From the NCBI GenBank assembly GCA_022360955.1, contig JAKSBV010000381.1:1-33986 (forward strand): a DNA stretch of 33,986 nucleotides, read 5' to 3'. Position 1 is the stretch's first letter. Each line of letters starts with the position of its first letter. This document shows, piece after piece, positions 3,687-27,630 of this stretch. This DNA is from Bacillota bacterium. Its GTDB lineage: Bacteria > Bacillota > Clostridia > SK-Y3. The notes under the pieces were generated by a model that did not search any database, had not been told where the DNA came from, and saw only the letters and a list, made by a program, of their open reading frames with translations. Made by a program: the position numbers and the translations under genes.

Positions 3687-5090
3687 ATGATGGATCATGG
3701 GACGCAAAAAGCGGATTTTATCAAAGATGATGTGATTTTTGCTGCGTTGGAAAAGGGGAAGAGAGCAGGCGCTGAGGATGTTAAAAAAATTATTGAGAAG
3801 GGAAGAATGTCAAAAGGGCTAGAGGTTGAGGAAGTTGCGGCTCTTCTGCAAATCAATGACCCTTCTCTGGAAGAAAAGCTTTTTGAAGCGGCCAAAGAAG
3901 TGAAAGAAACCATTTACGGCACGAGGATCGTTATGTTTGCACCGTTATACGTTTCGAATTATTGTGTCAATAACTGTGCATATTGCGGCTATAAATGCGG
4001 TAATCGTTTTACAAGAAGACGGCTGACCGATGATGAAATCAGGAAAGAAGCAGAAATTATCGAAAATCTCGGACACAAAAGAATTGCTTTGGAAGCAGGG
4101 GAGGATGACCGAAACTGTCCCGTTGAGTATATTCTGCATGCCATGGATGTGATTTATAATACCAAGCTGCAAAACGGAAGTATTCGTCGCATCAATGTCA
4201 ATATTGCGGCGACAACGGTAGAAAACTACAAGGAGCTGAAGGAAGCGGGGATCGGCACGTATATTCTGTTCCAAGAGACATATCACCGGGCGACCTATGG
4301 GAAAGTGCATCCTGCCGGACCGAAAAGCGATTACGACTATCACCTCACAGCCATGGACAGAGCGATGGAAGCGGGGATTGACGATGTAGGAGTCGGTGCA
4401 TTATTCGGCTTATATGATTACAAATATGAAGTGCTGGGCCTTATGCTTCATAAAGAGCACTTGGAGCGCCAATACGGCGTAGGGCCGCATACCATTTCCG
4501 TACCTAGAATGAGACCGGCACAGGACGTATCGTTAGAAAATTATCCATATTTGGTATCGGATGACGCCTTCAAAAGAATTGTTGCCATTTTGAGATTGTC
4601 AGTACCTTATACGGGCATTATTTTATCTACCCGGGAAGAGCCGGGATTCAGAGAAGAAGTGATTAAACTCGGTGTTTCACAGATTAGTGCGGGTTCATGT
4701 ACCGGGGTCGGCGGCTATAAAGAGCACGAAGAGGGGAACGATGAACCCCAGTTTGAATTGGCGGACCACAGAACCCCTGATGAGATTATAAAGACCTTAT
4801 GCAAGCAGGGATATATGCCGAGCTATTGTACGGCATGTTACAGGACTGGCAGAACAGGGGACCGTTTTATGCAATTTGCCAAAAGCGGCAAAATTCATAA
4901 TCTCTGTTATCCCAATGCGATGATGACCTTCAAAGAATATCTGGAAGATTATGCCGATGATGAATTGAAGGCCTTGGGCAACAAGGTGATTGAAGAAAAC
5001 CTTGAGAATATTCCCCATGAAAAGATGAGAGAACAGACCAAAGATCGCCTGAAGCGGATTGAAAACGGAACGAGAGATCTGTTTTTTTAG
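3687..5090 (+). CDS. hydG: [FeFe]-hydrogenase maturase HydG, radical SAM tyrosine lyase
   Basis: HydG cleaves tyrosine to p-cresol and dehydroglycine and makes the CO and CN- ligands of the H-cluster as an Fe(CO)2CN-cysteine synthon. Both cluster sites are complete: the radical-SAM CX3CX2C at C93, C97 and C100 (CVNNCAYC), and the C-terminal CX2CX22C at C381, C384 and C407 that binds the auxiliary cluster with the dangler iron. The length (467 aa) is typical. The ATG at 3687 follows AAGGGAGG; a second ATG at 3690 is possible. The protein is cytoplasmic and oxygen-sensitive, which supports a strict anaerobe. No hydrogenase structural gene is in the window. Confidence 0.96.
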   Translation: MMDHGTQKADFIKDDVIFAALEKGKRAGAEDVKKIIEKGRMSKGLEVEEVAALLQINDPSLEEKLFEAAKEVKETIYGTRIVMFAPLYVSNYCVNNCAYCGYKCGNRFTRRRLTDDEIRKEAEIIENLGHKRIALEAGEDDRNCPVEYILHAMDVIYNTKLQNGSIRRINVNIAATTVENYKELKEAGIGTYILFQETYHRATYGKVHPAGPKSDYDYHLTAMDRAMEAGIDDVGVGALFGLYDYKYEVLGLMLHKEHLERQYGVGPHTISVPRMRPAQDVSLENYPYLVSDDAFKRIVAILRLSVPYTGIILSTREEPGFREEVIKLGVSQISAGSCTGVGGYKEHEEGNDEPQFELADHRTPDEIIKTLCKQGYMPSYCTACYRTGRTGDRFMQFAKSGKIHNLCYPNAMMTFKEYLEDYADDELKALGNKVIEENLENIPHEKMREQTKDRLKRIENGTRDLFF

Positions 5091-5280
5091 ATTAGTTCGG
5101 AGCGTGGGGCGCGGAGCCGGGCGTTTTGAGTTTGGAGGTTCAAGATAGCGGCTTTGATATCGGGTAGAGTATTTGAAGATGACGCGGGGGTCGTTTCATC
5201 GCTTTGCTTTTGATTTCTCGGCTATCCTTCGAAAAGGCCCAAATCTTGCGTCCCCATCACTCTGCTGCTTTGAGCTTGAC

Positions 5281-5326
5281 GGTAATGTGTTTAGTATTAT
5301 GTATGCTGTACACACAACACATTTCC
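5281..5326 (+). promoter_or_regulatory. Inverted repeat and possible promoter in the hydG-hydE gap
   Basis: GGTAATGTGTT (5281-5291) and AACACATTTCC (5316-5326) form an inverted repeat matching at 10 of 11 positions, with a 24-bp spacer. TTGACG (5276-5281) abuts its left arm, and a poor -10 (TATGTA, 5298-5303) could sit in the spacer. This could be an operator-covered promoter for hydE. The rest of the 5091-5360 gap holds no gene I can recognise. Confidence 0.35.
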
Positions 5327-5360
5327 AAACCCCAAACTATTAAAAAATGAGGTATGTCTT

Positions 5361-6437
5361 ATGCGAGCATTGCTGAATAAGTTATATGACGAAAATCATT
5401 TAACAAAAGAAGAAATCATTTATTTACTTCAAAACTTGGATGACGAACATCAAAAAATACTGTTTGAGTATGCCCGTCAGACGCGGTTAAAATATTATGG
5501 CAATAAAGTTTATATGAGGGGGCTCATTGAGTTTTCCAACATATGCAAACAGGAATGTCTCTACTGCGGTATTCGGGCGTCCAATACCAAGGCGGACAGA
5601 TATCGTTTATCGCCGGAAGAAATCATTCATTGTTGTGAAACGGGCTATCAATTGGGGTACAGGACCTTTGTATTGCAAAGCGGCGAAGATTTTTGGTATA
5701 CGGAGGAGAAATTAATTGAGATTATACAAAGCATCAAAGCATTGTTTTCGGATGCAGCGATTACCCTTTCAATAGGGGAGAGAAGCTATGAGGTGTATAA
5801 AAACCTTTTTGAAGCCGGGGTGGATCGGTTCTTATTGAGACATGAAACAGCGTCTCGGGGATTATACGAGAAATTACACCCGGGCATGAGCTTTGACAAT
5901 CGCAGAAACTGCTTACAGGTATTGAAAAAAATCGGCTATCAGGTAGGCGCGGGATTTATGGTTGGGCTGCCGGAGCAGACAGCCGAGGATTTGGCAGAGG
6001 ACCTGTGTTTTCTAAAACAGCTGGATCCCGACATGATTGGCATTGGGCCCTATATTCCCCATTGTGAGACACCCCTTAAAGGTTCAAAGGGCGGGACGGT
6101 GGACGATACCCTTGTCATGCTGGCCTTGACGCGATTATTGATACCGGAATGCTTATTGCCCTCTACTACCGCCATGGGTACGTTAGATCCGAAGGGCAGA
6201 GAGAAGGCGTTAAACGCAGGGGCCAATGTGGTTATGCCAAATCTTTCCCCCATAGCGGTCAGGGCCAAGTATGCGTTATATGAAAATAAAATATGTACGG
6301 GAGATGAAGCCGCCCATTGCAGACAGTGCATTGAGAGAAGAATTCGCTCAATCGGACTTGAGGTAGATATGGGCCGGGGAGACAGCCTAAAACACAAAAG
6401 GGGTCAGGCTTCACAATTACACAGTTATTTGATATAA
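5361..6437 (+). CDS. hydE: [FeFe]-hydrogenase maturase HydE, radical SAM; 3' end replaced by transposon sequence
   Basis: HydE acts on the HydG-derived Fe synthon on the way to the diiron core. The radical-SAM CX3CX2C is C62, C66, C69 (CKQECLYC). Near the C-terminus C312, C320 and C323 reproduce the CX7CX2C second-cluster site of Thermotoga HydE, which is not essential in all family members. The length is 358 aa. The last 14 or so codons, from K345 on, are encoded by the left end of the RAYT element inserted at 6398, and the TAA stop lies in element DNA. The conserved core ends just before, so the protein is probably functional with a foreign tail. The start ATG has a modest SD (TGAGG). A separate promoter from hydFG is possible. 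Confidence 0.94.
   Translation: MRALLNKLYDENHLTKEEIIYLLQNLDDEHQKILFEYARQTRLKYYGNKVYMRGLIEFSNICKQECLYCGIRASNTKADRYRLSPEEIIHCCETGYQLGYRTFVLQSGEDFWYTEEKLIEIIQSIKALFSDAAITLSIGERSYEVYKNLFEAGVDRFLLRHETASRGLYEKLHPGMSFDNRRNCLQVLKKIGYQVGAGFMVGLPEQTAEDLAEDLCFLKQLDPDMIGIGPYIPHCETPLKGSKGGTVDDTLVMLALTRLLIPECLLPSTTAMGTLDPKGREKALNAGANVVMPNLSPIAVRAKYALYENKICTGDEAAHCRQCIERRIRSIGLEVDMGRGDSLKHKRGQASQLHSYLI
6398..6422 (+). repeat. Left terminal inverted repeat of RAYT element 1
   Basis: 25 bp, exactly complementary to 7336-7360. Also found at 9025-9048 with the first base missing or changed. It lies inside the hydE reading frame. Confidence 0.9.
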
Positions 6438-6466: not shown

Positions 6467-7354
6467 ATGGCGAGAAAACCAAGGATACATTACGAAGGGG
6501 CGTTATATCATGTGATGTGTAGAGGTAATAATAAAGAAAAAGTCTTTGAAAGCAGTGAAGATAAAAGGGAATATTTAAAGATTATCAAGATGTATAAGGA
6601 AAAGCTGGAGTTTAATTTGTATGCCTATTGTATTATGGACAATCATGCACATTTGTTAATACAAATACGGCATACGCCGCTTTCCGTTATCATGCAGAGA
6701 ATTCAACAGGTGTATACGCAAAGATATAATAAAAGGTATGAAAGAACAGGTCATGTATTTGAGCAGAGGTACCAAGCTAAGCTGTGCCAAGAAGATCAAT
6801 ATCTATTGAGTTTAATAAGATATATACATAAAAATCCAAAAGAAGCTAAGATAAAAGAGGGAATAAAATATAATTGGAGCAGCCACTTGGAGTATATAGG
6901 CGATCGGGAAAGGAATGTAACGGATATTGCCTTTCCCTTGTTATTATTTTCGAAAAATAGACAGAAGGCAGTAAAAGAATACCTGGCATTTATGGAAGAG
7001 GAAGAGAATGAGAATTTTAAAGAGTGGGAAGAAACAAATGCAGGCCAAGAGCAAAAAGAGAAGAAGGCAAAGAAAAGGGATAGTAAAGAATTAATCGAAA
7101 TCATAGAAAATAAAAGTGAAATTAAAATAGCAGATATAAGAGGCAGATCACTAAAAAGAGATGTAGCGGCAAAGCGGAAGATAGTTGTGTTTATACTTAA
7201 AAACTATAGCAATAGCACCAATAAGGAAATAAGTGAAATTTTAGGGTTAAGTCAGCAGGCAATAACAAATATATTAAATAGAGGTCTAGAAAACGTTGGC
7301 GTTTTTAGGGAAACCTATGATCGGTTAGTCGAATTGTGTAATTGTGAAGCCTGA
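6467..7354 (+). CDS. REP-associated tyrosine transposase (RAYT, Y1_Tnp family)
   Basis: This single-strand DNA transposase (295 aa) has the RAYT N-terminus YHVMCRGNN, the metal-binding HUH motif H60-A-H62 (MDNHAHLLI) and the catalytic tyrosine Y119 in YIHKNP. Residues about 180-215 are a charged linker. The last 90 residues resemble the DnaA-C-like helix-turn-helix seen in some members (EISEILGLSQQAITNIL). The gene looks intact and is the likely source of mobility for the 25-bp-ended elements here. Its final residues LCNCEA and stop are encoded in the right inverted repeat. Codon use is more AT-rich than in the neighbouring hyd genes, consistent with acquisition. Confidence 0.93.
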   Translation: MARKPRIHYEGALYHVMCRGNNKEKVFESSEDKREYLKIIKMYKEKLEFNLYAYCIMDNHAHLLIQIRHTPLSVIMQRIQQVYTQRYNKRYERTGHVFEQRYQAKLCQEDQYLLSLIRYIHKNPKEAKIKEGIKYNWSSHLEYIGDRERNVTDIAFPLLLFSKNRQKAVKEYLAFMEEEENENFKEWEETNAGQEQKEKKAKKRDSKELIEIIENKSEIKIADIRGRSLKRDVAAKRKIVVFILKNYSNSTNKEISEILGLSQQAITNILNRGLENVGVFRETYDRLVELCNCEA

Positions 7355-15783: not shown

Positions 15784-15849
15784 AGTCGGGGGGACGGTTC
15801 TCTTGACTCATTTTCAGAAAAATGAGTCAAGAGAACCGTCCCTCCGACT
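15784..15849 (+). repeat. GGGACGGTTCT hairpin repeat, copy 1 (after mrpD)
   Basis: A long near-perfect palindrome. The left arm has GGGACGGTTCTCTTGACTC and the right arm has GAGTCAAGAGAACCGTCCC, with a short loop near TTTTCAGAAAAA. The variable triplet CTT/AAG in the stem is complementary on both sides. There is no T tract after the stem. Confidence 0.92.
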
Positions 15850-19079: not shown

Positions 19080-19142
19080 GTCAAGGGGACGGTTCTTCTG
19101 ACTCATTTTCGGAAAATGAGTCAGAAGAACCGTCCCCTCGAC
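19080..19142 (+). repeat. GGGACGGTTCT hairpin repeat, copy 3 (after ABC permease)
   Basis: The left arm carries GGGGACGGTTCTTCTGACTC, the right arm GAGTCAGAAGAACCGTCCCC, and the loop is CG between CATTTT and AAAATG halves. The variable part is TTCTG/CAGAA. It begins three bases after the permease stop and lies just before the GH31 SD. Confidence 0.92.
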
Positions 19143-19161: not shown

Positions 19162-21171
19162 ATGATTCATTTGGAAACCAAAGATCGCAGGTTCGTATTG
19201 GAATATAATGGACTGAAGATTATTGTTCACACGCCTGAAAGTCCGTTTTTGTACGCAGGATGCGGCAAAGGGAGCTTTACGATGTATCATGGCAATTTTG
19301 ACATACAGGAAAATCTTGAGGAAAAATTAGCCTTGGCCGACTATCGTGTTCTGGAAAAAAATACGGACGCTTTCAAAATTGAATTTTCTAAAAAGGGGTT
19401 ATATGCCCTGGTTGTTCATTTCAAAGAAGTAAACGGAAGGCTGGAGGCCTCATTTGAAGATGCATCCGGGGATATAAACAGGGTGTGGATCAGGCTTCAT
19501 GCGGACAAAAAAGAACATATATATGGCTGCGGCGAACAGTTTTCGGAGCTTGACCTCAGAGGCAAAAAAGTCCCCCTTTGGGTTGAGGAGCAGGGGGTAG
19601 GCAGAAACAAAAAAGATTATATGACCTTTCAAGCAGATGTATTCCATAATGCCGGAGGGGATTGGTATACAACGTATTTTCCACAGCCGACCTTTGTATC
19701 CACCCAGCGCTATTTTTGTCATGTGGAAGACTCGCACTATATGGTATTCGATTTTAGGGCAGAAAGTTATCATGAACTTTCAGTGTGGGCGCTTCCCAAA
19801 AAAATCGTTATATCCCGAAGAGAAAATACTGCTGCGGTGCTTAAAGACTTAACGGCCTATTTAGGAAGACAGCCGGCGCTTCCCGATTGGACTTATGACG
19901 GTGTTTGGTTGGGGCTTCAGGGAGGCACGGAAACTGTTTTGCGAAAACTGCAAAATGCTGAAGAACACGGATTGAAGGTAGCGGCTTTATGGGTGCAAGA
20001 TTGGCAAGGAAAACGAGTCACTGCTTTTGGAAAGCAGTTGATGTGGGATTGGAAATACTCGGAAGAAATGTACCCGGGTTTACCCGAGACGATTAAGGAA
20101 TTAAGTAAAAAGGGAATCCGATTCTTAGGATATATTAATCCGTTTCTTGCCCTTGAAGGAGAATTATATCAAGAGGCTTCCGCAAAAGGATACCTCGTCA
20201 GGCAGAAAACGGGAGAAGAATATCACGTCGTCATCACGACATTTCCTGCTGCGATGCTTGATTTAACCAATCCGGCTGCCATAGCGTGGATAAAAGATGT
20301 TATCAAGGAAAACATGATGGGCATCGGATTAGCAGGATGGATGTCTGACTACGGCGAATATTTGCCCACCGATGCGGTGCTGTATTCCGGAGAAAGTGCC
20401 GAAGCTTTTCACAATAAATTACCGGTTGTATGGGCGAAAACCAACCGAGAAGCCGTAGAAGAGGCAGGTCAATTAGGAGAGGTCGTATTTTTCAGCCGTG
20501 CCGGTTATACGGGAATGTCCAGGTACTCGACCATTATGTGGGCAGGAGATCAGCTGGTGAATTGGAGTTTGGACGACGGATTGGCTTCCGTGATACCGGC
20601 GGCACTCTCATTAGGGATGAGCGGATTTGGTATTTCTCATTCCGATATCGGCGGTTTTACTACAATTTTGGATGTGAAGAGAACAAAAGAGTTATTCATG
20701 CGATGGGCGGAGTTGTCGGCATTTACGCCTATTATGCGAACCCATGAAGGCAACCGGCCCGACGACAACTGGCAATTTGATTCCGATGAAGAGACCCTTT
20801 TGCATTTTGCAAGGCTGAGCAGGATTTATAGCCATTTGAGGCCCTATCTCAAAAAAGCGGTACAGGAAAATGCAGAGAAGGGGCTGCCCGTCATGCGGCA
20901 TCCTTATATACACTATGAGAATGATGAAGTGGTTCATACCTTAAAGTATCAATACCTTTTGGGAAGAGATTTAATGGTGGCACCGGTATATCAGGAGGCA
21001 CAGAACAGCCAAAAAGTTTACCTGCCGGATGATCAATGGATTCATCTGTGGTCCGGTCAAGCGTACGGCAAAGGCTGGTGTGAGGTGAGTGCGCCGCTGG
21101 GACACATACCGGTATTTTATAGGCAGCAGTCGCAGTATGGTGATTTGTTTAAACAGATTCCTCAGCTATAA
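19162..21171 (+). CDS. GH31 glycosidase, YihQ (sulfoquinovosidase)-like, paralogue 1
   Basis: 669-residue retaining alpha-glycosidase closest to E. coli YihQ among proteins I know, with long shared segments (YGCGEQFSELDLRGK, PQPTFVSTQ, THEGNRPDDNWQFD). The nucleophile is D396 (GWMSDYGEYLP) and the acid/base D463 (WAGDQ), equal to YihQ D405 and D472. Of the YihQ sulfonate-recognition set, the two Gln and W295 are kept, but R301 is Q292 and Y508 is F499. Hydrolysis is safe to infer; sulfoquinovoside as substrate is not. There is no signal peptide, so it is cytoplasmic. SD is AGGAG. No promoter is visible between it and the ABC permease, so it may be read from upstream. Confidence 0.9.
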   Translation: MIHLETKDRRFVLEYNGLKIIVHTPESPFLYAGCGKGSFTMYHGNFDIQENLEEKLALADYRVLEKNTDAFKIEFSKKGLYALVVHFKEVNGRLEASFEDASGDINRVWIRLHADKKEHIYGCGEQFSELDLRGKKVPLWVEEQGVGRNKKDYMTFQADVFHNAGGDWYTTYFPQPTFVSTQRYFCHVEDSHYMVFDFRAESYHELSVWALPKKIVISRRENTAAVLKDLTAYLGRQPALPDWTYDGVWLGLQGGTETVLRKLQNAEEHGLKVAALWVQDWQGKRVTAFGKQLMWDWKYSEEMYPGLPETIKELSKKGIRFLGYINPFLALEGELYQEASAKGYLVRQKTGEEYHVVITTFPAAMLDLTNPAAIAWIKDVIKENMMGIGLAGWMSDYGEYLPTDAVLYSGESAEAFHNKLPVVWAKTNREAVEEAGQLGEVVFFSRAGYTGMSRYSTIMWAGDQLVNWSLDDGLASVIPAALSLGMSGFGISHSDIGGFTTILDVKRTKELFMRWAELSAFTPIMRTHEGNRPDDNWQFDSDEETLLHFARLSRIYSHLRPYLKKAVQENAEKGLPVMRHPYIHYENDEVVHTLKYQYLLGRDLMVAPVYQEAQNSQKVYLPDDQWIHLWSGQAYGKGWCEVSAPLGHIPVFYRQQSQYGDLFKQIPQL

Positions 21172-21172
21172 A

Positions 21173-21241
21173 GAGTCAAGGGGACGGTTCTTCCGACTCA
21201 TTTTCCTTCAAAATGAGTCAGAAGAACCGTCCCCTTGACTC
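21173..21241 (+). repeat. GGGACGGTTCT hairpin repeat, copy 4 (after GH31-1)
   Basis: Outer arms are GAGTCAAGGGGAC and GTCCCCTTGACTC. The inner arms are GGTTCTTCCGACTC and GAGTCAGAAGAACC, with one mismatch, and the loop contains CCTTC. It begins two bases after the stop codon. Confidence 0.92.
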
Positions 21242-21244
21242 ACG

Positions 21245-21265
21245 ATAATATCGTAAACGATATAT
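21245..21265 (+). promoter_or_regulatory. Operator-like palindrome, first of two identical 21-nt copies
   Basis: Contains the perfect palindrome ATATCGTAAACGATAT (21248-21263). The 21-nt block is repeated exactly at 21827-21847, where it overlaps a strong promoter. This copy has no evident promoter and lies beside the IS remnant. Confidence 0.6.
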
Positions 21266-21640
21266 TCTTATCTTTGACAGTTTTTAAAAACAAAAAGTCT
21301 AGAAAATCCTTATAGAATAGGGGTTCTAGGCTTTTGCTTATTTTGAAAGGGGTGAGTATTTTTTTGTTAAATTTCTTTTCAAGCCGCCTATAGAGGATAA
21401 GGGAGATAAAGCAGGCAGTAAAGTGAGCTTGTATTCTATCATCTGTTTGTAAGTATACTGGTCGTGCTTTGGATTTGGTTTTCATAATTCGGAAAGATTC
21501 TCCAATTCATTGAATTTTCGGTTAACATTTGAAGCAAGACCGGTGTCCGTACACACAACAAACGTGGAGATTTTAAAATCAGAAATGATTTTTTTCTCAA
21601 GAGGCTTTTAAGTATCAAGGGTAACAACTCCTATTATTTA
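21266..21640 (-). pseudogene. Remnant of an IS1634-like (IS4-type DDE) transposase
   Basis: On the minus strand two short coding fragments remain. One contains TFVVCTDTGLASNVNRKFNE (around 21500-21580), resembling the second catalytic Asp region of this family. The other has VYLQTDDRIQAHFTACFISL (around 21400-21470), resembling its C-terminal region. Between them the rest of the catalytic core is deleted, and stops interrupt the frame, so it is inactive. No inverted ends could be recognised. The family is assigned from memory of motifs. Confidence 0.65.
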
Positions 21641-21799
21641 TATGATAACGCAATACTATAAAATACTCGCTATAAAAATGTGAAATTTGACAAAAAATAA
21701 GCCTAAATGAAGGCTTTCCGGAGACTTTTCCTTTATACAGCTGTCAAAGACCCGAGACAGTCCACTCATTCAATATGCTTCCGAAGAAACGAAATACTA

Positions 21800-21847
21800 T
21801 TGACTTTTATTATGTTAAGGGATATAATAATATCGTAAACGATATAT
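21800..21847 (+). promoter_or_regulatory. Promoter and operator of the ABC-GH31 operon
   Basis: TTGACT (21800-21805) and TATAAT (21823-21828) are spaced 17 bp. The 21-nt block with palindrome ATATCGTAAACGATAT (21830-21845) begins in the -10 and covers the start site, a classic repressor position. The regulator is not in the window. The transcript has a leader of about 235 nt before the lipoprotein gene. Confidence 0.8.
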
Positions 21848-21849
21848 CA

Positions 21850-22072
21850 TTCGAGTTAAAGCAGCGTGTTTGCCCATTCTTTGTATGTTCTACATGAAGG
21901 TAATATCATTTTGTATCCTATAGAAAATTTTAGAATTCTACTTATTGTTAAATCATATTGCTTGTTATGTGTATTTTAATACCCGGAGATTCATAAAGAT
22001 TTTAGGGCTAAAGCCTTGAAATATATAGGGGTAGGTATCTCCTAATGAAAAAATATACGAGGAGGAGTATGA
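21850..22072 (+). promoter_or_regulatory. Long 5' leader of the sugar-importer operon
   Basis: No ORF is present. Near its 3' end GGAGAT (about 21985) can pair with ATCTCC (about 22037), enclosing a small GGGCTAAAGCC hairpin. The CTCCT of the latter strand can also pair with the SD AGGAG just before 22073. The two pairings are mutually exclusive, so translational control is possible. This is inference from complementarity only. Confidence 0.3.
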
Positions 22073-23386
22073 ATGAGTAAAAAGGTAGTTTTAGGCATGT
22101 TTGCAGTTGTGCTGGTATTAACGCTATTATTCAGCTTAACTGCATGTGGTGAGAAAAAGGTCCCCGCCCCCGATGAGGCAAAACAGACAGAACCATCTCA
22201 AAAAGAAGTTGTGATTAATTTTCCGAGTATTTGGGTTGGAAAGGATTCAAAAGCAAATGTTTTTGGAAGCTTCGTCAAAGAGTTTAATGAGAAAAACGCC
22301 GGCAAGATTAAAGTTGTTGTAGAGGAAATGGCCGACTATCAAGCGTATAGGGATAAAATGAAAACAAATATTGCTGCCGGGACCGTTCCCGATGTATTCT
22401 CTTTTAACAATGCGAAAGATTCGGTGTTGTATTATAAGTCGGGGAACCTGATGGATTTAACTCCGCACATGAATGGTGGGTGGAAAGAGGATTTTATAGC
22501 GGATGCCCTCAAGGAGGTTACATATCAGGATAAAATAATGGCAATGCCTTACGAATTTGCAGTGACTCCGTTGATGTATAATAAAAGGCTTTTAGACAAA
22601 GCCGGAGTTGCAGAATTTCCTAAAACCATGGATGCATTTATCGAAATGGCTGAAAAGTTAAAGGGGCAGGGTGTTATGGCGGCCTCTCAGATGACAGGAG
22701 AAAACGGATGGTTTTCAATGCTGTGGTATTCACATTTGCTGGTAGCACATGGCGGACCGGATGTGTTTGACCGGGGCTTGGATGATCCGGCTTTTTTGGA
22801 AGCGGCTAAATCGTTAAAGAAATTATTCCAATACACCACAGGTGATGCTGTGGGTGCCGGTGCAGCAGTGGCGGGCGGACATTTCTTGAGTGAAAAAACC
22901 GCTATCTTGGTGAACGGCCCATGGTTTATAGGGAGGATAGAAAAGGAAGCTGCCGAGGGAATGTATGAGCAGGTCAATGTTGCGCCCGCTCCGACTGTGG
23001 CCGGCGGAAAAGGCAAGCAGGGTTATTATGTCGGATTTATACAATCCAGTTTGGCAGCAGCAAAGCAAAAGGATAAGGCTAAAGAAGATGCTGTGGCAGC
23101 ATTTTTTAAATATATTTCCACACCGGAAAACGTAAAACGCTTATCATTGGATAGCGGTTCTTTATTTGTTATCAAATTCAAAACGGATGAAAATGACAAA
23201 ATGTCTCATATACAAAAGCAAATGATTGAGCAGTCTTCGTCGGCGCCGTCCATTACAAAGCATTTTAATGCCGCGATGGATACTGCGGTTGTGACTGAGT
23301 TTCCACAGGCTTTATCGGGGATGATTTTAGGAGAATTTACGCCTGAACAATTTGTTGAACAATTAAAGCAGAAGGCTGCGCAATAG
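22073..23386 (+). CDS. ABC sugar importer, substrate-binding lipoprotein (family 1)
   Basis: 437-residue extracellular solute-binding protein. A signal peptide with lipobox SLTAC puts the lipidated cysteine at residue 25. The mature protein has family-1 features such as FNEKNAGKIKVVVEE, GTVPDVFSFNNAKD and the hinge region AMPYEFAVTPLMYNKRLLDKAG. It would capture an oligosaccharide or glycoside outside the cell and hand it to the two permeases that follow. SD GAGGAGGAG is strong. The flanking GH31 enzymes suggest an alpha-glycoside. It is the first gene after the operator-controlled promoter. No ligand-binding residues can be assigned from sequence alone. Confidence 0.93.
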   Translation: MSKKVVLGMFAVVLVLTLLFSLTACGEKKVPAPDEAKQTEPSQKEVVINFPSIWVGKDSKANVFGSFVKEFNEKNAGKIKVVVEEMADYQAYRDKMKTNIAAGTVPDVFSFNNAKDSVLYYKSGNLMDLTPHMNGGWKEDFIADALKEVTYQDKIMAMPYEFAVTPLMYNKRLLDKAGVAEFPKTMDAFIEMAEKLKGQGVMAASQMTGENGWFSMLWYSHLLVAHGGPDVFDRGLDDPAFLEAAKSLKKLFQYTTGDAVGAGAAVAGGHFLSEKTAILVNGPWFIGRIEKEAAEGMYEQVNVAPAPTVAGGKGKQGYYVGFIQSSLAAAKQKDKAKEDAVAAFFKYISTPENVKRLSLDSGSLFVIKFKTDENDKMSHIQKQMIEQSSSAPSITKHFNAAMDTAVVTEFPQALSGMILGEFTPEQFVEQLKQKAAQ

Positions 23387-23402
23387 TAATGATGACAGTG
23401 TG

Positions 23403-23434
23403 GTAGGAGGGGAGCAAAATCCTTCCCCTCTTAC
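23403..23434 (+). other. Hairpin between binding protein and permease genes
   Basis: GAGGGGA pairs with TCCCCTC, with outer GTA/TAC, and no T run after it. Hairpins at this place in CUT1 operons commonly protect the upstream mRNA and raise binding-protein expression over the permeases; that role is inferred. Confidence 0.5.
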
Positions 23435-23502
23435 AATGCACCCTCATATTTTGGAGAAAATTACATTGGTAAATATTTATTTGCAAAGGGAGATATAGCG
23501 CT

Positions 23503-24384
23503 ATGAATAAAGCGATGAAAAATAATCTTGGAATTATCCTATTTCTAACACCTGCTTTGGTAATTTTCTTTGTGTTTTTTGTATATCCTGTTTTCTTCGT
23601 GGCAAGTACCAGTCTTGTCCGCTGGGATGGTATTACGGATATTACTTTTGTAGGAGTCAATAATTATATTAGTCTGTTTAAGGATGGTACATTTATAAAA
23701 TCCGTTACAAACAATTTGAAGTGGTCCATGTCGGGAGGCTTTATTCATGTACCGATGGCAATGTTTGTGGCACTGCTGCTGTCAAGCAAACCAAAAGGTT
23801 GGAAGATACTTAGAACGATATATTTCTTCCCCAATATTATCTCGATTATTGCGCTTTCTATGATGTGGATGGCAATGTACAACAATGAGTACGGAGCTGT
23901 CAATGCACTTCTGAGAGCTGTCGGATTAGAGCATTTACAGAGAAATTGGCTGGGAGATTTACATACGGCATTCCCCGCATTAATCGCTTACTGGATTTTT
24001 TATATCGGATATTTTATGGTTATTATTTTGGCTGAAATATCAACGATACCGGAATCGTACTATGAAGCTGCCAGCATTGATGGTGCCAATCGTATCCAGC
24101 AAACGATATACATTACGCTTCCGATGCTTAAAGGCATCATGGGTACATGCATTACGCTGTCAATGGTAAGTGGGTTAAAGCAGTTTGAACAGGTGTTTAT
24201 TATGACCAATGGAGGGCCTGCTAATAGGACTACATTGCTAGCTTTATATTTGTACAAGCAAATGATTAATTACAGGTATGGTTTAGCGAATGCAGCAGGT
24301 GTTATGCTGCTGACATTTGGCGTTATCGTTATATTCACGATTAAGAAAATATTCAGTACAAATAAAATAGAACAGGTTGGGTAG
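23503..24384 (+). CDS. ABC sugar importer permease 1 (MalF/UgpA-like)
   Basis: 293-residue inner-membrane protein with six hydrophobic segments. The EAA loop that docks the ATPase reads EAASIDGANRIQQTIYITLPM. It forms a heterodimer with the next gene product. SD AAAGGGAG precedes the ATG, and the stop overlaps the start region of permease 2. No ATP-binding subunit is in the operon. In Firmicutes CUT1 importers often share an MsmX/MsmK-type ATPase encoded elsewhere, which is the likely partner. Confidence 0.93.
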   Translation: MNKAMKNNLGIILFLTPALVIFFVFFVYPVFFVASTSLVRWDGITDITFVGVNNYISLFKDGTFIKSVTNNLKWSMSGGFIHVPMAMFVALLLSSKPKGWKILRTIYFFPNIISIIALSMMWMAMYNNEYGAVNALLRAVGLEHLQRNWLGDLHTAFPALIAYWIFYIGYFMVIILAEISTIPESYYEAASIDGANRIQQTIYITLPMLKGIMGTCITLSMVSGLKQFEQVFIMTNGGPANRTTLLALYLYKQMINYRYGLANAAGVMLLTFGVIVIFTIKKIFSTNKIEQVG

Positions 24385-24398
24385 TGAGGAGGAGTACA

Positions 24399-25301
24399 GT
24401 GAATGTCGAATTAAAAGGAATTGGCAACAGCAGCAAATCAGCTATATCTATGAGGCATATGACCAAGAAGCGGCTTTTGGGTAAAATTGCGGGAAAGACG
24501 GTGATGTGGTGTATCCTTTTATTTTTCTTGTTTTATACACTATTTCCTATGATATGGCTGGTGATTTCCTCATTTAAGACGAATGTGGAGTTATTTGATA
24601 ATCCCTTTAGTTTACCCAAGGTGTGGCAGTTTCAAAATTACAAGAATGCGTTTCAGGTTTCCGGCTTGGCAGTATTGTTTAGAAATTCAATTGTTATAAG
24701 CCTATGTGCCACAGCATTCAATCTATTTGTAGCATCAATGGCCGGGTTTGTCTTGGCAAGACAGCGATTTAAGCTAAGAGAGGCAATATTTGTACTTTTG
24801 ATAAGCGGTATTTTGATTCCTGTCAATGCTTTGATGGTGCCGTACTACAAAATAATTACCCAAATTAAATTATACGATTCTATTTTTGCGTTGATTTTAA
24901 CTTATGGTGCAATGGGGCTTCCGATTTCCGTATTTCTGGTCAGAGGTTTTATGAAAACAATTCCTTGGGAGCTGGAAGAGTCTGCAACCATTGACGGCTG
25001 CAATTTTTACCAAAGATTTTTCAAAATCATATTGCCGTTATCCAAGACAGGCTTAATAACGGCAGGAACCTTTCAATTTCTATTGAGCTGGAATGAATTT
25101 ATCTATGCGATGCTGCTGACATCATCCACAAGTTCACGCACTATCCAGCTAGGGATCAGATATTTTTCAAACCAGTTTACGACTGACTATACATCTATGT
25201 ATGCCGCAATTGTGATAAGCATTATTCCCAGTTTGACGGGATATGTTTTATTCCAGGAACAAATTATATCCGGACTGACGAGCGGAGCGGTTAAAGGATA
25301 A
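24399..25301 (+). CDS. ABC sugar importer permease 2 (MalG/UgpE-like)
   Basis: 300-residue inner-membrane protein with an extended N-terminus before six helices. The EAA loop reads EESATIDGCNFYQRFFKIILPL. I chose GTG at 24399, preceded by GAGGAGGAG; the first in-frame GTG at 24384 overlaps the SD itself. It ends with the MalG-like short tail LTSGAVKG. It completes the channel with permease 1. Confidence 0.92.
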   Translation: MNVELKGIGNSSKSAISMRHMTKKRLLGKIAGKTVMWCILLFFLFYTLFPMIWLVISSFKTNVELFDNPFSLPKVWQFQNYKNAFQVSGLAVLFRNSIVISLCATAFNLFVASMAGFVLARQRFKLREAIFVLLISGILIPVNALMVPYYKIITQIKLYDSIFALILTYGAMGLPISVFLVRGFMKTIPWELEESATIDGCNFYQRFFKIILPLSKTGLITAGTFQFLLSWNEFIYAMLLTSSTSSRTIQLGIRYFSNQFTTDYTSMYAAIVISIIPSLTGYVLFQEQIISGLTSGAVKG

Positions 25302-25546
25302 AATACGCATATCAAAATTTATTGTCGATAAAGCATGATTTTGATGTCTGAGGGTGCAATTGTAGGGTGCGAAAGAACTATAAACACAATCAAATATTAA
25401 ACGTTATATGCTGTAATGATGGTATGACGTCAACGGATATGGCAAATGCCGTAAGGACAGTTGTGAAAAGGAAGCAAGCTTCACAGCGGTGGAGTATTGA
25501 AATTGCAAAGGACTAAATATGAAGTTTACAGAGAGGAGTAAACAAG
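25302..25546 (+). other. Gap between permease 2 and GH31-2
   Basis: 245 bp with no terminator and no recognised gene. A short open frame (NDGMTSTDMANAVRTVV in part, ending near 25516) might be a gene vestige, but I could not assign it. The lack of a terminator lets GH31-2 be read from the importer promoter. Confidence 0.4.
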
Positions 25547-27556
25547 ATGATTTGCTTGCAAATAAAAGATCAGGGATTTACATTAAAATATAATGGGGTA
25601 GATGTCATTGTTCATACGCTTGAAAGCCCGTTTTTGTATGCAGGATATGGAAAAGCGGATTTTTCGATGTATCATGGCAATTTTGACATACAGGAAAATC
25701 TTCAAGAAAAATTAGCGTTATCGGACTATACCGTTTTGGAAGAAAGTACGGATGATTATAAAATTAGTTTTTCCAAAAAGGGGTTAAATGCGCTGACTGT
25801 TCATTTCAAAGAAGCAAATGGAAGGCTGGAGGCTGCATTTGAAGACGAATCCGGGGATATAAACAGGGTGTGGATTAGAATCCATGCGGATAAAGAGGAG
25901 TATATATATGGCTGCGGCGAACAGTTTTCGGAGCTTGATCTTAGAGGAAAAAAAGTGCCTCTTTGGGTTGCGGAGCAGGGTGTAGGCAGAAACAAGAAAG
26001 ATTACGTCAGCTTTCAAGCAGATGCAGCCGATAAAGCCGGTGGAGATTGGTATACAACGTATTGCCCGCAGCCGACCTTTGTATCCACCCAGCGATATTT
26101 TTGTCATGTGGAAGACTCACACTATATGGAATTTGATTTTAGGGCCGAAGATTATCATGAACTTTCGGTGTGGGCTGTTCCCGAAAAAATTGTCATATCT
26201 CAAAAAGAAAATGCTGTTGCAGTGCTTAAAGATTTAACGCACTATTTAGGAAGACAGCCGGCGCTTCCCGATTGGACTTATGACGGTGTTTGGTTGGGTG
26301 TTCAGGGTGGTACCGAGACTGTTCTGCAAAAACTGCAAAATGCTCAAGAGCATGGATTGAAGGTAGCGGCTTTATGGGTACAAGATTGGGAAGGAAAAAG
26401 AATCACTGCTTTTGGAAGGCAGCTGATGTGGGATTGGAAATATTCGAAAGAAATGTACCCGGGTTTACCCGAGACGATTAAGGCGTTAAGTGAAAAGGGT
26501 ATTCGATTTTTAGGATATATCAATCCGTTTCTTGCCCTTGAAGGAGAGTTATATCAAGAGGCTTCGCAAAGAGGATATATCGTCAGGCATAGGACGGGAG
26601 AGGAATACCACATCGTCATTACGACATTTCCTGCCGCGATGCTCGATTTAACCAATCCCGATGCGGTAGAATGGATGAAAGATGTTATCAAGGAAAACAT
26701 GATTGGGATTGGATTAGCAGGTTGGATGGCTGATTACGGTGAATATTTGCCTACCGATGCGCTTTTGTATTCGGGAGAAAGTGCCGAGGCTTTTCATAAT
26801 AGGTTACCGGTGGTATGGGCGCAAATCAATCGAGAAGCTGTAGAAGAGGCAGACAAATTAGGAGAGGTCGTATTTTTCACGCGTTCAGGTTATACCGGGA
26901 CATCCCGTTACACAACCGGCATGTGGGCCGGAGACCAGCTGGTGAATTGGAGTTTGGACGACGGATTGGCTTCCGTTATTCCGGCAGCGCTATCATTGGG
27001 TATGTGCGGGTCTGGCATTTCTCACTCCGATACCGGCGGCTTTACTACACTTTTTGGTGTGAAAAGGACAAAAGAACTATTCATGCGATGGGCGGAGTTG
27101 TCGGCATTTACGCCTATTATGCGAACCCATGAAGGCAACCGGCCCAACGACAACTGGCAATTTGATTCCGATCAGGAGACCCTTTTGCATTTTGTGAGGA
27201 TGAGCAGGATTTATACCCATTTGAAGCCCTATCTCAAAAAAGCGGTACAGGAAAATGCCGAAAAGGGGCTGCCCGTCATGCGGCATCCTTATATACACTA
27301 TGAAAATGATGAAATGCTTCATACCTTAAAGTACCAATACCTTTTGGGAAGAGATTTAATGGTGGCACCGGTATATCAGGAGGCACAGGACAGCCAAAAA
27401 GTTTACCTGCCGGACGATCAATGGATTCATCTGTGGTCCGGTCAAGCGTACGGCAAAGGCTGGTGTGAGGTGAGTGCGCCGCTGGGATACATACCGGTAT
27501 TTTATAGGCAGCAGTCGCAGCATGGTGATTTGTTTAAACAGATTCCTCAGCTATAA
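25547..27556 (+). CDS. GH31 glycosidase, YihQ (sulfoquinovosidase)-like, paralogue 2
   Basis: 669 residues and colinear without gaps with the enzyme at 19162. The catalytic pair is D396 (GWMADYGEYLP) and D463 (WAGDQ). It shares the same departures from YihQ: Q292 in place of R301 (GRQLMWDW) and F499 in place of Y508 (TGGFTTLF), with W295 kept. It also has T497 where YihQ and paralogue 1 have Ile (HSDTGG versus HSDIGG). The two genes differ clearly in the first 200 codons but are nearly identical at DNA level over the last third. SD is GAGGAG. It is the last gene of the importer operon. No signal peptide, so it would act on imported glycoside. Confidence 0.9.
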   Translation: MICLQIKDQGFTLKYNGVDVIVHTLESPFLYAGYGKADFSMYHGNFDIQENLQEKLALSDYTVLEESTDDYKISFSKKGLNALTVHFKEANGRLEAAFEDESGDINRVWIRIHADKEEYIYGCGEQFSELDLRGKKVPLWVAEQGVGRNKKDYVSFQADAADKAGGDWYTTYCPQPTFVSTQRYFCHVEDSHYMEFDFRAEDYHELSVWAVPEKIVISQKENAVAVLKDLTHYLGRQPALPDWTYDGVWLGVQGGTETVLQKLQNAQEHGLKVAALWVQDWEGKRITAFGRQLMWDWKYSKEMYPGLPETIKALSEKGIRFLGYINPFLALEGELYQEASQRGYIVRHRTGEEYHIVITTFPAAMLDLTNPDAVEWMKDVIKENMIGIGLAGWMADYGEYLPTDALLYSGESAEAFHNRLPVVWAQINREAVEEADKLGEVVFFTRSGYTGTSRYTTGMWAGDQLVNWSLDDGLASVIPAALSLGMCGSGISHSDTGGFTTLFGVKRTKELFMRWAELSAFTPIMRTHEGNRPNDNWQFDSDQETLLHFVRMSRIYTHLKPYLKKAVQENAEKGLPVMRHPYIHYENDEMLHTLKYQYLLGRDLMVAPVYQEAQDSQKVYLPDDQWIHLWSGQAYGKGWCEVSAPLGYIPVFYRQQSQHGDLFKQIPQL

Positions 27557-27630
27557 GCGAGTCAAAGGGACGGTTCTGCTGACTCATTTTTGAAGGAAAA
27601 TGAGTCAGCAGAACCGTCCCCTTGACTCGC
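27557..27630 (+). repeat. GGGACGGTTCT hairpin repeat, copy 5 (after GH31-2)
   Basis: Outer arms are GCGAGTCAA and TTGACTCGC. The inner arms are GGGACGGTTCTGCTGACTC and GAGTCAGCAGAACCGTCCC, with GAAGG in the loop. The loop is the reverse complement of that in copy 4, so the two lie in opposite orientation. It begins at the base after the stop codon. Confidence 0.92.

Follow-up and report, generated by a model that had tools for sequence, protein, structure and literature searches.

A YihQ-like GH31 pair with glutamine in place of Arg301, flanking ABC importer genes in a Bacillota genome, as a probable sulfoquinovoside import and hydrolysis cassette

Sulfoquinovose (SQ) is a sulfur-containing plant sugar, which is freed by the sulfoquinovosidase (SQase) YihQ. 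To our knowledge, Arg301 is held invariant in the SQase pocket signature (QQRWY or KERWY, according to the earlier note on this DNA), and a locus where two YihQ-like GH31 enzymes lack this arginine raises the question of whether they still act on sulfosugars. The analysed DNA, here called the window, comprises positions 1 to 33,986 (33,986 nt, forward strand) of contig JAKSBV010000381.1, assembly GCA_022360955.1, from a Bacillota bacterium (Bacteria; Bacillota; Clostridia; SK-Y3). It contains a cassette of five genes, all on the + strand, in which two GH31 genes stand on either side of the genes for an ABC lipoprotein and two permeases:

19162..21171, + strand: GH31 YihQ-like glycosidase A, with Q292, W295, T360, F499, D396 (nucleophile) and D463 (acid/base), from sequence alignment and an AlphaFold model
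22073..23386, + strand: substrate-binding lipoprotein of a carbohydrate-type ABC importer (Pfam SBP_bac_8), with relatives in YihQ clusters
23503..24384, + strand: MalF-type permease (Pfam BPD_transp_1), 61% identical to the permease of the L018/L086 sulfo-TK-type cluster
24384..25301, + strand: MalG-type permease (Pfam BPD_transp_1), 72% identical to the permease of the L018/L086 cluster
25547..27556, + strand: second GH31 YihQ-like glycosidase (B), a paralogue that shares Q292, T360 and F499 with A (dN/dS to A of 0.18)

Context and orthology lead us to read the five genes, with a probability of about 0.74, as a cassette that imports alpha-sulfoquinovosides and hydrolyses them through an alternative Gln301/Thr369 sulfonate pocket. 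The importer genes recognised earlier are real according to Pfam (one SBP_bac_8 and two BPD_transp_1 proteins), and no importer ATPase gene was found within the five-gene cassette, a point that the earlier note had omitted. Four REP-like inverted pairs (GGGACGGTTCTNNTGACTC) were found flanking or near the cassette genes, at 15791-15842, 19086-19136, 21181-21233 and 27567-27620. Exact REP-like half-sites number 17 in the 4.6 Mb draft, 7 of them in the window, which also encodes a Y1 transposase (IS200-like, possibly RAYT) at 6467-7351.

The sequence and fold of the GH31 SQase branch were present along the whole length of the window pair. In phmmer searches against the PDB, solved SQases ranked first (E values of 1e-187 to 1e-248) and the next GH31 proteins followed at about 1e-47; the best matches were EcYihQ (5aed, E=7.7e-248), BmSQase (8r56), E. 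rectale SftG (6pnr) and AtSQase (5ohy). The AlphaFold model of glycosidase A, built from 24 relatives (pLDDT 92.5), matched the solved SQases with Z scores of 58-59.5, against 42 or less for other GH31 structures. The pair shares with these four enzymes the whole-length fold, 43-52% identity, the catalytic Asp pair and W304, and with YihQ also Q262 and Q288, but it carries Gln, Thr and Phe in place of R301, E369 (in the FGEF motif) and Y508. Since the sulfonate triad R301/W304/Y508 is incomplete, the two proteins are described here as SQase-like, probably working as SQases do, and not as established members.

Residues were numbered from the YihQ chain of 5aed, which reproduces the published Q262, Q288, R301, W304, D405, D472 and Y508. 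Alignment to 5aed, 8r56, 6pnr and 5ohy confirmed the pocket as it had been described, with Q292 for R301 and F499 for Y508 in both enzymes, and with Q253 (Q262), Q279 (Q288), W295 (W304), D396 (D405) and D463 (D472) kept on a YihQ scaffold, the two aspartates separated by the same 67 residues as in YihQ. W304 is therefore the only triad residue that is kept. A larger linked change had gone unnoticed: the segment EFGEFYGG of YihQ (366-373) reads VITTFPAA in the window pair. A literature text search for the strings KERWY and QQRWY returned nothing relevant.

The extent of this change was examined in 48 YihQ-type sequences, 16 with R301 and 32 with Q301. No alignment column predicted residue 301 better than position 369 of the FGEF motif, which is Glu or Asp in 15/16 R301 proteins and in none of the 32 Q301 proteins, where it is Thr (30), Ser (1) or Ala (1). 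The Q301 proteins all fall in one large branch of the tree, comprising Thermotogota and several Bacillota, in which Q301 is the usual state; the view that the altered pocket is a conserved and not a random change is borne out. Inside this branch, four proteins (those of L029, L031, L032 and L066) combine R301 with Glu or Asp at 369, whereas L030, which belongs to the same small group, pairs Q301 with Ala369. The sole R301 protein without an acid at 369 (L018, with Ala369) branches near the base with weak support. Because R301 proteins with the acid are nested inside the Q301 branch, the pair of positions appears to have co-varied through more than one change. Kinship among the sequences inflates any p-value for this association, so the weight is carried by the within-branch changes. 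We infer from the sequences a salt bridge or structural contact between 301 and 369, and the coupling supports the SQ-glycoside reading. Phe508 turns up at separate places, in the window pair, in L032, in L053 and in L056/L060; Y508F arose several times in the tree and is a lesser change than that at 301.

Flanking genes were read for 28 Q301 loci, window included, some of them on short contigs. A locus was counted when it held at least one of four markers, namely a SqvD-like isomerase, a SqwGH-like split transketolase, a sulfofructose-transaldolase-like protein or a SuyAB-type lyase. Marker identities were checked by searches of Pfam, NCBIfam and the PDB. As SuyAB is a member of the galactarate/altronate dehydratase family, it was assigned by its split-gene architecture and its neighbours, as described in PMC9594981. 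Markers were present at 25 of the 28 loci, which are mostly from Thermotogota and hence not independent, and at 0/20 control regions (arbitrary 20-kb regions of genomes with YihQ homologues), which supports the SQ-glycoside reading. The exceptions were the window and two loci of one branch, L009 and L087, which had no marker gene within reach and no class II aldolase, SqvD-like or importer genes among their flanks. The markerless loci and the predominance of Thermotogota are counted against the reading. Further support comes from the transaldolases beside Q301 enzymes, which match BmSF-TAL far better than the next solved transaldolase (349 vs 165, 287 vs 157 and 228 vs 141 bits), and from L081 (genome G835), where an enzyme with exactly Q301 and F508 lies inside a cluster of SF-TAL, SuyA, SuyB, SlaB and isomerase genes.

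Two types of cluster were found in Thermotogota, one sulfo-TK-like (transketolase, RpiB-like protein and Fe-ADH) and the other composed of transaldolase, SuyA, SuyB and a SlaB-like aldehyde dehydrogenase, corresponding to sulfo-TAL with C-S cleavage; both have been reviewed for Thermotogae (PMC9594981, PMC12890257). Most of the YihQ proteins read from these clusters share Q301 and TTFPA with the window pair, and one subgroup F508 too, but they sit within the pathway cluster, whereas the window pair stands apart from it, in company with an importer. The same sulfo-TK-type cluster carries R301/GEF enzymes in L077 and L078 and Q301/TTFPA enzymes in L010, L011, L067-L069 and L071-L074, which supports the SQ-glycoside reading; the R301/GEF cases suggest that a change of pocket need not alter the pathway. 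No paper commenting on the residue change at 301 in Thermotogae YihQ was found, nor was an assayed Q301 enzyme. A variant site has a precedent in the GH188 SQases, in which one sulfonate-site residue is altered and which also occur in sulfoglycolysis-like clusters, although they belong to another family with an NAD-dependent mechanism and make the contact through a backbone amide (PMC11465081).

Two other genes of the Thermotogota clusters were observed. Six sulfo-TAL clusters (L080, at 5025-6260, L082, L084, L085, L089 and L090) have, between SuyB and SlaB, a gene for a nickel-dependent protein of the malate-racemase family (LarAH5 model, below cut-off), a candidate for the sulfolactate racemase that would supply the (R)-specific SuyAB. 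The sulfo-TK-type clusters share an EamA-family transporter (L010:6154-7071, L067-L069, L071-L074, L077 and L078), which is a candidate isethionate exporter replacing TauE/SqwE.

Other Bacillota supply the nearest relatives of the pair (63-68% identity). A class II aldolase gene was found near four of these close-relative loci (L029/L093, L030, L031 and L032), and L029/L093 and L030 also contain a SqvD-like isomerase and an ABC importer, gene sets that resemble sulfo-EMP2. A search for orthologues among six genomes of the window's family and seven of its order gave no other match.

The importer points in the same direction. Close relatives of the lipoprotein (E<1e-50) numbered three in the 390 other genomes sampled from the class, and 3/3 lie in YihQ clusters (hypergeometric p about 1e-6). 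The proposal that the GH31 enzymes belong with the importer they flank is upheld. In G198 (L018/L086), the lipoprotein (59%) and permeases (61% and 72%) adjoin transketolase, RpiB, DUF4867 and SqvD-like genes; in G200 and G241 a canonical R301 SQase gene lies directly downstream of the lipoprotein gene. At L018/L086, L019 and L020, the importer orthologues are accompanied by genes for an SQase and for the SQ pathway. An MsmX/UgpC-like ATPase (58%) is encoded on another contig of the same genome, which also supports the reading. In gene neighbourhood there is a likeness to the sulfo-TK clusters of Faecalicatena and Clostridium sp. MSTE9, where substrate-binding proteins and permeases are encoded among or close to the SQ-degradation genes (PMC11659671). 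PDB matches were uninformative for naming the lipoprotein ligand, the best being 4g68, a chain described merely as an ABC transporter, and proteins that bind chitin or xylo-oligosaccharides.

The absence of sulfoglycolysis genes had been taken as an argument against plain SQ use. It holds for the window, and there it is counted against the SQ-glycoside reading, but not for the importer's nearest relatives, which lie in sulfoglycolysis clusters, nor for the genome. Contig C112 of the same draft contains a canonical R301 SQase beside sulfo-TAL/TK-type genes for a BmSF-TAL-like transaldolase (2.3e-88 against BmSF-TAL), a SqvD-like isomerase, a split transketolase pair, an RpiB-like isomerase and an Fe-ADH. 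The argument for a substrate shift from missing pathway genes was dropped on finding this pathway. C112 could be a binning error, the draft consisting of 522 contigs with 4.4% contamination; its tetranucleotide profile fits, with a value of 0.755 against the window, closer than any foreign locus compared. A second transaldolase-family protein (360 aa, L023:7726-8808, - strand) is encoded in the C112 cluster beside the BmSF-TAL-like one.

Under the SQ-glycoside reading, the importer would take up the glycoside, most likely sulfoquinovosylglycerol to judge from context, with energy from a shared MsmX/UgpC-type ATPase whose gene lies elsewhere. The two GH31 enzymes would cleave it by the usual retaining mechanism, with D396 as nucleophile and D463 as acid/base, and the freed SQ would enter the sulfo-TAL/TK-type pathway of C112. 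In the putative alternative sulfonate site, R301/E369 would be swapped as a unit for Q301/T369, with W304 and neutral hydrogen-bond donors remaining.

Since the genome already has a canonical SQase, the pair may have a distinct substrate or aglycone. It is conceivable, though unlikely, that it cleaves the glycoside of a modified sulfosugar (another epimer, an acylated SQ or another aglycone), with Q301/T369 as a specialisation within sulfosugars; two pocket types would then coexist in one genome, and the linked change does extend beyond 301 to about 366-372. However, the equivalent sulfo-TK-type clusters around R301 and Q301 enzymes suggest the same product sugar.

Still less likely is the view of the earlier note that the pair abandoned sulfonates and hydrolyses an alpha-glycoside, neutral or carboxylated, delivered by the importer. 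The missing R301 and the missing hydroxyl of Y508 agree with it, as do the Phe at the 508 position in this genome's two non-YihQ GH31 proteins (motif DIGGF), the lack of a pathway gene in the window and the orphan loci L009 and L087. Against it stand the pathway on C112, the restriction of importer relatives to YihQ clusters in the 390 genomes and, above all for the step from R301Q/Y508F to a sugar without sulfonate, the presence of Q301 enzymes in sulfosugar-degradation clusters, including the exact double change in the SuyAB/SF-TAL cluster of L081.

The identical double change in two paralogues had been offered as evidence for a shift. The two genes are 88% identical in DNA (dN/dS 0.18) and their products, each of 669 aa and 86% identical, group together in the tree of YihQ-type sequences; as the paralogues stem from a single duplication, their shared R301Q/Y508F is one inherited event and the two copies do not count as independent evidence. 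Gene identity is 77% at the 5' end and climbs to 98% at the 3' end, which suggests gene conversion. Decay of one or both copies into duplicates with no physiological role, an idea to which the canonical SQase elsewhere and the REP-like palindromes around the cassette lend some colour, is very improbable given two intact open reading frames, kept catalytic residues and the low dN/dS.

More generally, it is fairly probable that GH31 SQases can recognise the sulfonate without Arg301, a large branch of Thermotogota and Bacillota using a coupled Gln301/Thr369 pair, and that the R/acid and Q/T pairs have interconverted. If so, the signature for calling SQases would need revising. The Q301 branch includes most of the YihQ-bearing Thermotogota sampled, and if it cleaves SQ glycosides, the Arg301 signature wrongly shuts a whole branch of anaerobes out of the SQ economy, and the branch would constitute a natural experiment in arginine-free sulfonate recognition by a glycosidase.
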